Shown piece by piece: positions 26,424 through 29,444 of a stretch of 64,000 nucleotides of DNA. The stretch spans positions 186,001-250,000 of the forward strand of contig WLXD01000004.1 in assembly GCA_012103255.1 (NCBI GenBank), written 5' to 3'. The translations under genes and the position numbers were made by a program. The notes under the pieces are model-generated. The model saw nothing but the letters and a program-made list of their open reading frames with translations, was not told where the DNA came from and made no database searches. The first letter of the stretch is position 1. Each line of letters begins with the position of its first letter. The DNA is from Acidobacteriota bacterium. Lineage in GTDB: Bacteria > Acidobacteriota > UBA890 > WLXD01.

Positions 26424-27713
26424 CTAGCTGCCGCACGATTTCTTGCAGCCCACCCAGGCGCCGATCACCTTTGCGTCCTTCTTGAGTGAGCCGGCGTTGT
26501 CGCGCTTTTTCTTGATTCCGGTCTTCGAGCCGAGGTGCGTCTTCTTCGGATTCGAGAAGTAGCCGGCGCGATCGCAGCGACTGAGCCCATCGGTCGTGCA
26601 GCTGTACGACATCACCGTGCGGAACGATCCCGGCACGCGATGACCGAATGAAGACGGGTAGGCGCCGGACTGAACGCCGTTGTCTTCCGGATTGTGTCGC
26701 AGGCCCATGTTGTGGCCACCTTCGTGCCCGAATGTAAACGCCCCATAGCTGCCAACACAGTCGGAACGCACGATGTTGAACGCACGGACCGCATCCTCCG
26801 GACGAGCGCCGGAATTGGCACCGGACACGTAGCCCAGGCCACAGATCCCCTCTGTGTGCGCAATGGCCATGCTCACGAAGTCCGCGCCAAACTTTTTGCG
26901 GAACTTGTGCGCCTTCTCCATCTGGCCGTCGCCCACCGTGCGCAGCGCCTTGAGCACCGCTCCCCCAGGGATGTCGTTGTCCAGAGGACCGTTGTATTTC
27001 ATTTTCTTGAGACCGACGAGACGGATCACCATCGGCACGCCCGAGGCCTGGAGGGCCGCGTTCATGACCGCGACCGTGAGCTTCCAGTCGGCCTTCATCA
27101 TCTTGGCGCCGCCAACTTCCTTGGCTGCCTCGGGCATGTAGAGCGCGAGCAGATCGACTGTCACGTCGTTCGCCAATGGCTCGGCATCGACCGTCGGTCC
27201 GCGGTCGGCTTCAAAGGCGTCGACGACTGGATCCACCAGCACGTCGTTGCCCTCCGGCAGCGCGGTGGCGTCGTACTCGACGATCACGCCCCGTCCCCTT
27301 CCTCGTGGGCGAATGTCGAAGCCGCGCCCACGGTAGCTCACGGTGCCAACGACAATCCCGCCTTCAACCACGAGGTGGGCGGCACTCATCGGATCACCAA
27401 TGATCGTGCCGCTCCACACCGCGCCATGGAATTCATCGTTCCGTATGGTGCTGAATTCGGCGACGACGCGAACGTCAGGCGCGAGATCGAGCGACAACCG
27501 CGAGCCCGGCGTGGTGGTGCGCAGCAGCAGATCAGTATCGACCCGAATCTGGCGCGCAAACATGATCGTCGCGCGCTGCGTGCGGACGCCGGACGCATCC
27601 CCCTCGGCAACGACGGTGAACAGGTCCGGTGCCGCAGCTTCCTGGGCAGCGCTACCGGCGGCGCCGGAGAGTAGAACGGCGGCGGCGAGCACAACAACAA
27701 GACGAGGGCGCAT
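26424..27713 (-). CDS. exported metzincin-type zinc protease (M12-like)
   Basis: 429 residues. Signal peptide (MRPRLVVVLAAAVLLSGAAG). A pro-region of about 170 residues is followed by a reprolysin-like catalytic domain: FGHEGGHNMGLRH is HExxHxxGxxH, and a Met-turn follows in FRTVMSYSC. Cysteine-rich, Lys-rich tail (HLGSKTGIKKKRDNAGSLKK, in parts). It likely digests extracellular proteins. The frame is open 17 codons further upstream, but the signal starts at this ATG. Located just upstream of the tmRNA, on the other strand. Confidence 0.85.
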   Translation of the reverse strand: MRPRLVVVLAAAVLLSGAAGSAAQEAAAPDLFTVVAEGDASGVRTQRATIMFARQIRVDTDLLLRTTTPGSRLSLDLAPDVRVVAEFSTIRNDEFHGAVWSGTIIGDPMSAAHLVVEGGIVVGTVSYRGRGFDIRPRGRGRGVIVEYDATALPEGNDVLVDPVVDAFEADRGPTVDAEPLANDVTVDLLALYMPEAAKEVGGAKMMKADWKLTVAVMNAALQASGVPMVIRLVGLKKMKYNGPLDNDIPGGAVLKALRTVGDGQMEKAHKFRKKFGADFVSMAIAHTEGICGLGYVSGANSGARPEDAVRAFNIVRSDCVGSYGAFTFGHEGGHNMGLRHNPEDNGVQSGAYPSSFGHRVPGSFRTVMSYSCTTDGLSRCDRAGYFSNPKKTHLGSKTGIKKKRDNAGSLKKDAKVIGAWVGCKKSCGS

Positions 27714-27852
27714 CTTGAAAGCCTCCAGGGAGCGTGAGCAGCGTGCCCCGAGTATGCCCCGCATGCGCGTGCTCCCGAAAGGGAACCCTGCGGGGCCCTG
27801 CGTGAGAGGCGGGCGTCAGCGGCGCTTTCCGTCGTTCAGCGCACGGCGCGAA

Positions 27853-27861
27853 TGCTATTCT
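27853..27861 (+). promoter_or_regulatory. extended -10 candidate of the tmRNA gene
   Basis: TGCTATTCT is an extended -10 (TGnTATTCT) 39 bases before the mature 5' end. No convincing -35 is visible. The distance fits a short precursor leader removed by RNase P. Confidence 0.35.
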
Positions 27862-27899
27862 GAACAAGTGGCTCGCTCAGGCGGTCCACACCCCCAACA

Positions 27900-28251
27900 G
27901 GGGGCGACAGGGTTCGACGGGAACTCTGAAGCCGAAGTTGCATGTCGAGCGTCTCAGACTGCTCGTAAAAACCACTGAGAAAACACACAACTGCCGAAAC
28001 ACCGGTAGCTCTAGCGGCCTAAACCCCGCTAGCGTGGCCCAGAGCAGACCTGCAGGCTCTGGCAACCACGTCATACAGCAGGTTGGCTGCGTGCCGCACC
28101 TCAGGGTGGCGTAGCGAGAAAACACTGAGGCGTGCGCTTTCACTGGCCTGTCCGCTGGGCAGGTGCTAGCGCGAGAATTAATCAGCGGAACAAGCATGTA
28201 GACGCTTCTGCGGATGGTTTTCGGACGCGGGTTCGATTCCCGCCGCCTCCA
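27900..28251 (+). ncRNA. ssrA: transfer-messenger RNA (tmRNA)
   Basis: Rescues stalled ribosomes by tagging nascent chains. The 5' end GGGGGCGACAGGGTTCGACG and the 3' end (GCGGGTTCGATTCCCGC, then CGCCTCCA) form the alanyl tRNA-like domain; GGGGGCG pairs with CGCCTCC with one G-U. The T-arm contains GGTTCGATTCC. The tag frame is most likely GCC at 27993 to the TAA at 28020-28022, encoding AETPVALAA after the alanine brought by the tmRNA itself, ending in the usual LAA. CCA is not encoded: CTG follows the discriminator A. Length about 352 nt. The order (tRNA-like end, tag frame, pseudoknot-rich region) is standard for the one-piece form. Confidence 0.95.
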
Positions 28252-28254
28252 CTG

Positions 28255-28361
28255 CTTCAGGCCCGAGAAAGGGTCGTCTGCGGCGTTATCGGAGCCTTGA
28301 AGGTCCCGATGACCGTCGTCGGCTCCGATGCCTTGCATCCGACCCTTTCTCGGGCCTGAAG
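28255..28361. repeat. 107-nt near-perfect inverted repeat directly after the tmRNA
   Basis: Outer arms of 22 bases are perfectly complementary (28255-28276 starting cttcaggcccgagaaagg and 28340-28361 ending tctcgggcctgaag). Inside, atcggagcc (28288-28296) pairs with ggctccgat (28321-28329), and ggtc/gacc near 28302-28314 form an apical stem. It begins three bases after the tmRNA discriminator. There is no T-run, so it is not a typical intrinsic terminator. Candidates: an RNA 3' structure, a processing or termination signal, or a small palindromic repeat. Confidence 0.7.
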
Positions 28362-28646
28362 TGTGTTTGGGAAGCGCGTAGGAAGGGTATGCTGGCCTCG
28401 TCATGGGGCACAGGCGTTACCGGCCCACGGGGCCAAGGTAGCGACCGAGCCAGGCCAGCGTCTTCCTGTAACGCATCGTCGTGTCCGCAGAGTATTGCCG
28501 CATCCGTTCAGGACGCAGCTGCGAGTGTGCGCGGTCAGCTCGTGGCGCCGTCTGGAGTTCGTGCGGCCTTCCGGGTACCCCGGCGGGCAGGGTAAACAGG
28601 AGAGCCACCGTCGCAACTTCGGCACCGCCGCGCCGCGCCGAACCAG
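28362..28646. other. intergenic stretch without a supported gene
   Basis: Between the hairpin and the convergent protease-like gene. Short open frames exist on both strands, but none has a start, ribosome site or codon pattern I trust; no tRNA-like fold was found. Confidence 0.5.
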
Positions 28647-29444
28647 TCAGCGCGGGGCGCGAGAGCGGGTGATCGGGTACAGGAGCAAGCGCTGGTCGTC
28701 GAAGTACGCAAGACGGTTGGGCACGGTTCGCTCGATCGTTCCCAAGAGCGACCGCGAGATTCGGTTCGACCGGTGCCGCGCCGCCAGGTACAGCAAGAAG
28801 GTCTCGGCAATGTCCTCGCGAACTGGGTTGTCACGTGCGTACGTGGAGATGAAGCTCCCGTCTCGCTGCTGGGCCCGGCGCCATCCGACAGCACCCGCGT
28901 GATGGGCATCCAGCGAGGTGTGGCTCGCCTCATGAACCAGCGTCTCTTCGAGAATACCGTCGCGCTCGTAGATCTCGGCCTGTCCGGTGTGGATCAGCAC
29001 GTTGTTGTTGCCGCCGCCGAAAGGCTTGAGGCCCTTGTGAATCCAGACGGTCGCCATGTCGGTCCGAAGCTGGGTGGGGATGCGTCCAATCGCCCTGGCG
29101 TATTTCTCAGCCTCGCGTTGAGCCGCCGCCTGACTGCCGAACTCCGGGTTCACCTGAACCTCGGCGGTCAGCCCGTCGTCGAACCCAGCGCGGAACAAGT
29201 AGGCGTTGACCTGGACAAACGTGGCCGCGCGCCGATCGAACATCCGTCGCGAGTCTTGCCCGGTGTACTCGAGTGCTACGAAGGCCGATCGATCCGTGGA
29301 ACGAATGATGTCGGGCTCCAGGAAAATCGTGCCGGTGAAGGGCGGCGTCTGCGCGAGGCAGACCCCAGGAATCAGTAGCAATAGCGCTCCGACAACGGCT
29401 TTCAAGCCAGCTTCCTGCCTCGTATTTGTGTAGGTCAGAACCAA
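28647..29444 (-). CDS. exported HExxH protein, putative zinc protease
   Basis: 265 residues. An N-terminal hydrophobic segment (LKAVVGALLLLIPGVCLAQ) predicts export. The catalytic motif is ETLVHEASHTSLDAHHA (HEASH), with IAETFLLYLAARH about 40 residues later supplying a possible third Glu or His ligand. N-terminal beta-rich region (FLEPDIIRSTDRSAFVALEY). I do not recognise the family; gluzincin-like fold is inferred. The frame starts at TTG (29442-29444), divergent from purL. The second HExxH protein near the tmRNA, but unrelated to the M12-like one. Confidence 0.68.
   Translation of the reverse strand: MVLTYTNTRQEAGLKAVVGALLLLIPGVCLAQTPPFTGTIFLEPDIIRSTDRSAFVALEYTGQDSRRMFDRRAATFVQVNAYLFRAGFDDGLTAEVQVNPEFGSQAAAQREAEKYARAIGRIPTQLRTDMATVWIHKGLKPFGGGNNNVLIHTGQAEIYERDGILEETLVHEASHTSLDAHHAGAVGWRRAQQRDGSFISTYARDNPVREDIAETFLLYLAARHRSNRISRSLLGTIERTVPNRLAYFDDQRLLLYPITRSRAPR

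Follow-up and report, generated by a model that had tools for sequence, protein, structure and literature searches.

A hairpin behind the tmRNA gene of an Acidobacteriota bacterium probably belongs to a dispersed family of palindromic DNA repeats

The 107-nt hairpin that adjoins the tmRNA gene (ssrA) in the window (i.e. the whole 64,000-nt stretch of DNA that was analysed) is probably one copy, in the form of a single arm, of a non-autonomous dispersed palindromic DNA repeat of a REP- or MITE-like kind. Copies of this palindrome are scattered between species, occur independently of tmRNA and belong to a family with a common core and covarying stems. The tmRNA is regarded as an accidental neighbour and any effect of the element on tmRNA 3′ ends as incidental, unless experiment shows otherwise. 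The features of the locus are as follows.

27900..28252, plus strand: tmRNA gene (ssrA; ARAGORN; Rfam RF00023, 178 bits), which adjoins the element and is separate from it
28255..28361, plus strand: whole palindromic element, a solitary canonical arm of 107 nt (folding, inverted-repeat search, model R1)
28255..28276, plus strand: left outer arm, 22 nt (inverted-repeat search)
28278..28288, plus strand: left core CTGCGGCGTTA, common to many phyla (pattern scans)
28289..28296, plus strand: left inner stem TCGGAGCC (folding, stem covariation)
28297..28320, plus strand: hairpin tip (folding)
28321..28328, plus strand: right inner stem GGCTCCGA (folding, stem covariation)
28329..28338, plus strand: right core TGCCTTGCAT, common to many phyla (pattern scans)
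28340..28361, plus strand: right outer arm, 22 nt, complementary to the left arm (inverted-repeat search)

The two 22-nt arms (28255-28276 and 28340-28361) pair perfectly and constitute the window's strongest inverted repeat within 150 nt. The minimum free energy of 28245-28375 was -85.8 kcal/mol as compared to -46.0 +/- 4.0 kcal/mol for shuffled sequences (z = -10), confirming that the 22-base perfect inverted repeat with inner stems described in the first-pass annotation is real. Model R1 scored the element at 78.6 bits with a match at 28264-28352. ARAGORN and Rfam placed the tmRNA 3′ end at 28252/28254 and the acceptor stem identified A28251 as the discriminator, which is followed by C-T-G and then by the hairpin arm; the annotated position of the hairpin, at 28255-28361 and three bases past the discriminator, was therefore exact. 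The reported lack of a T-run was also borne out, and the hairpin consequently differs from an intrinsic terminator (i.e. a GC-rich stem followed by a T-run). No terminator-like site was detected in 27700-28750. The tag peptide encoded by this tmRNA is AETPVALAA. The tmRNA 3′ terminus (window 28249-28255) lacks an encoded CCA in the window genome, G003, G004 and G005; CCA is encoded in most other relatives, as compared over the window and loci L004, L006 and L008-L032. A 446-aa ORF with a metzincin-type zinc motif (HEGGHNMGLRH) occupies 26424-27764 on the minus strand.

The distribution of the palindrome was examined by searching 60 relatives with the tmRNA plus hairpin as query. Hairpins with 93% and 81% identity to the window copy were found in two genomes of the same genus (G001 and G002), at unrelated loci with no adjoining tmRNA. 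The G001 copy starts immediately after the TAG of an amidohydrolase-like gene and the G002 copy one base past the TAG of a pilin-like gene, whilst G001 also carries a decayed right half of the palindrome after a cold-shock-like gene (all three names were read from translations). Intact copies in the genus differ by paired changes in the arms, e.g. CTTCAGG/CCTGAAG versus CTTCTGG/CCAGAAG. At the site occupied in G001, the window genome (G000) is empty: both flanking genes match and are separated by 21 nt rather than ~147 nt. Divergence of the flanks made any target-site duplication at the G001 site unreadable. Conversely, the tmRNA site that is occupied in the window genome is empty in G003, a member of the same family, where CTCTAGATCG... 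is found instead, so that presence and absence at orthologous sites were observed in both directions. Copies at unrelated loci of congeners and an empty site support the suggestion of the first-pass annotation that a palindromic mobile repeat had landed behind ssrA. The search for copies of the arms that it proposed gave a single copy in the genome itself, by BLAST, pattern and covariance model, and the palindrome in relatives; its objection that a single copy absent from all relatives would weaken the repeat idea does not hold, because relatives carry the palindrome. The single copy is nevertheless a counterpoint to mobility, as it provides no proof of recent movement in the window genome. 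An isolated 30-nt copy of a tmRNA 3′ end was seen on contig C27 of G002 (L193 909-938), with no tmRNA gene detected and with a second short tmRNA-end-like stretch ~90 nt away; the arrangement looks like the attachment-site scar of an integrative element.

All four copies seen in the genus lie 0 to ~5 nt past a gene end with the core oriented as that gene, and in the wide family many cores are found 40-60 nt from a stop codon (i.e. about one outer arm away). Such positions would be expected of a general 3′-end structure, a terminator or mRNA stabiliser of whatever origin that the genus retains after selected genes. This explanation is the strongest of the alternatives and yet an unlikely one: across the wide family cores show no preferred orientation relative to the nearest gene end (11 versus 16 within 60 nt), orthologous sites differ in whether a copy is present, indicating that the genes manage without the element, and REPs are reported to survive behind genes with an equal location bias and no proven role (PMC3733652). 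Gene context (36 tandem, 18 convergent and 10 divergent places by crude ORF calls) together with the random orientation fits a DNA repeat surviving behind genes, as with REPs (PMC3733652).

Less probable still is a transcription terminator or 3′-processing signal specific to tmRNA and selected for that role; a tmRNA 3′ processing or termination structure was the other option of the first-pass annotation. The hairpin is very stable, sits just past the discriminator with no other terminator-like site near, and finds a parallel in G004 (another family of the same order), where the left arm alone follows the tmRNA at the same nucleotide and gives way to unrelated sequence (L006 1859-1890, contig C16). 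That parallel hints at either an ancient insertion or preferential use of the site; the half copy would fit an old insertion, or a repeated one at that position, from which half of the palindrome was later lost. Against a tmRNA-specific role, the T-run is lacking, congeners carry the palindrome after other genes, the sequences after the tmRNA in G003, G005, G007 and G008 are unrelated to it, and most relatives have other sequences there. The element is thus untied to tmRNA and the processing or termination proposal was left unsupported. A strong hairpin after a stable RNA gene need not be that gene's terminator.

Palindromes of the dispersed kind are mostly confined to one clade and linked to a known transposase. 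The core of this element (i.e. CTGCGGCGTTA, ~40 nt and TGCCTTGCAT) recurs in many phyla, often with dozens of copies per genome. A scan of a genome collection for CTGCGGCGTTA-N(20-50)-TGCCTTGCAT returned at least 113 stretches as compared to a chance expectation of ~4, estimated for both strands of 257 billion bases with 21 fixed positions, 31 possible spacings and equal base use. A few single hits are therefore probably chance matches, e.g. L095 and L125, neither of which folds into this palindrome. The record titles among the matches listed include Proteobacteria, Lentisphaerae, Verrucomicrobia, Bacteroidota, Firmicutes, Desulfobacterota, Gemmatimonadota, Actinobacteria and Myxococcales; many records are metagenome bins, and phyla with a single hit need care. 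Model R1, with which up to 150 candidates were scored per genome so that high counts are lower bounds, detected 0 to 26 copies in relatives (26 in G003 and 24 in G007) and 14 to at least 150 copies in each of six distant genomes. Three head-to-tail copies ~98 nt apart were observed in a Desulfobacterales bin (L092 1443-1700). Neither phages nor plasmids gave a match to the window copy, and searches with a Neisseria copy in plasmids and with a gammaproteobacterial copy in E. coli records were likewise negative. A Grimontia copy matched 13 large replicons of Vibrio, Pseudoalteromonas and Catenovulum, nearly all unannotated at the match, and secondary replicons of Vibrio and Pseudoalteromonas (NZ_CP013139, NZ_CP045339 and others) carry as many as nine copies of a 270-bp relative of the element, nearly all likewise unannotated.

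Covariation was assessed in alignment A2, whose 21 core columns are invariant by construction as the copies were retrieved by that pattern; the stems are the real test because they lie outside it. Both outer and inner stems vary freely across copies and remain complementary, with 79.4% of cells pairing (fixed core pairs included) versus 49.7% after shuffling and a covariation score of 0.668 versus 0.164 (0.15-0.25 for slid registers). Copies from the order that were found by the model indicate that the core itself tolerates change, including a paired GTTA...TGCC to GTTG...CGCC replacement. G-U pairs are few in the aligned copies. When the distinct transition-type mismatches of the outer arms were counted group by group, 67 read as wobble pairs on the strand opposite to the written core and 30 on the core strand (P = 2e-4); with groups as the unit the count was 17 versus 5 (P = 0.017). 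Endozoicomonas contributed 22 of the 67, and its exclusion left 45 versus 27. This bias hints that it is the fold of the opposite strand that is maintained; it is largely driven by Endozoicomonas and says little for the window genus. A structured non-coding RNA family encoded on one strand, for which the constant bulge motif between covarying helices and the wobble bias could be cited, is the least probable reading of all, given the lack of an Rfam family, the random orientation to genes, the few G-U pairs overall and a favoured strand that would be antisense behind the window tmRNA.

Whereas the window copy is a canonical arm alone, without terminal inverted repeats, larger forms were found in other lineages. 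Fuller versions of ~170-280 bp possess an extra arm and a CCCNNNGGG mini-hairpin, with terminal inverted repeats in order-level relatives, and folds of ~380 nt in several lineages comprise an outer stem, then a first arm whose core has degraded, the mini-hairpin and the canonical arm. Of 39 representative copies, 14 have the mini-hairpin starting 27-29 nt ahead of the core, as compared to 2.0 expected by shuffling and one with it on the other side. Order-level units end in CTAGCAG...CTGCTAG, with 95 such ends in G003; terminal repeats are present in G001-G003 and G006-G008 and absent from the window genome. The CTAG at both ends may be a duplication or part of the repeat. Discrete core-bearing units of 173-280 bp with these ends were observed in L262, L263 and L264 (G003 and G007), dozens per genome in G003 and many at contig ends; one lies directly behind or inside an apparent cobalamin riboswitch (L263 190-260, G003 contig C69). 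A solitary short palindrome without the core (GTAGCAGGTCGTGGTGGAGGGT...ACCCTCCACCACGGCCTGCTAG; L261 2083-2140, G003 contig C78) is composed of the larger units' terminal repeats.

Candidates for a mobilising enzyme were sought in carrier genomes. The Y1/RAYT transposase domain (PF01797) was absent from G000-G003, and hence from the window genus, and from genomes of Neisseria dentiae, Pseudothauera, Borkfalkia, Grimontia and Thalassotalea, several of which are rich in copies. In other carriers, one of 30 Y1 loci holds a copy of the element. Mobilisation by a RAYT was rejected, the domain being either absent or not adjoining. An all-against-all comparison of ORFs from 115 loci detected only common gene families and none that travels with the element, no parent IS was found, and a pair of terminal-repeat ends 1.8 kb apart enclosed ordinary genes and no transposase. 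With neither Y1 nor a recurring neighbour family, the route of movement is inferred. On the dispersed-repeat reading, an enzyme encoded elsewhere and acting in trans would recognise the core when it is folded as a bulged single strand, on the lagging-strand template for instance, and would copy or move the palindrome into intergenic places; copies just behind gene ends would survive best, being harmless there. Read-through transcripts of ssrA would include the hairpin, which may thus serve as an incidental 3′ barrier or terminator. Recognition of a bulged single-stranded hairpin by some factor is probable, and a core kept near letter for letter in many phyla between freely changing helices points to one cross-phylum recognition mechanism. 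A bolder proposal, put forward tentatively and with the balance somewhat against it, is that the core is the hallmark of a small mobile DNA class, as yet unnamed, that many bacterial phyla share; an undescribed enzyme that has itself spread horizontally would act on its bulged single-stranded hairpin, and lineages would replace the stems by paired changes whilst retaining the core. The core pattern and model R1 provide a search handle for the factor behind the element.

Comparisons were made with known systems. At the gathering score, Rfam assigned no family to the window or to seven other copy-bearing loci, with only microRNA-type matches to a generic long hairpin below threshold. Literature searches by sequence strings or topic, which could miss a consensus printed in figures or supplements, gave no name for the element; absence from Rfam and the searched literature is no proof that it is undescribed. 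Integron attC sites have extrahelical bases, a variable tip and complementary RYYYAAC/GTTRRRY boxes at the foot. The element shares the hairpin with extrahelical bases and variable tip, and possibly a one-strand preference, but lacks the complementary foot boxes (in 35 copies, GTTA is present without a TAAC partner) and its copies lie between ordinary genes. The TIR repeats of TIRtrons, associated with TIRYT, are likewise long, partly self-complementary and of moderate copy number (PMC3733652); the element, however, does not border the Y1 genes of tested carriers (1 of 30 loci), and such genes are absent from the window genus. Bacterial MITEs (Correia/NEMIS, ERIC, RUP; PMC10969869) are similarly non-autonomous and intergenic, and the larger order-level forms also have terminal inverted repeats; the differences are a window copy without such repeats, the missing parent IS and stems that vary by lineage around a constant core. 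Like REPs and REPINs, the element is a short intergenic palindrome with bulged stems, located mostly behind genes, present in many copies and patchy in several phyla (PMC3733652, PMC3116915), with high-copy dispersal seen in relatives and distant genomes and one copy in the window genome. REPs are defined by an unpaired GTAG or CGTC tetranucleotide at one end of a 20-40 bp stem-loop (PMC3733652, PMC3116915), whereas the 107-nt window element has neither tag at the foot of its stem; a CGTC before TGCGG at 28275-28278 is part of the stem and is limited to a subset of the 35 aligned copies. Nor is a RAYT flanked by the repeat, the window genus and several copy-rich genomes having no RAYT. The element is therefore REP- or MITE-like in behaviour yet stands outside the REPs, as it fails the tag and RAYT link that define them, and it differs further in a core that is common to phyla letter for letter.
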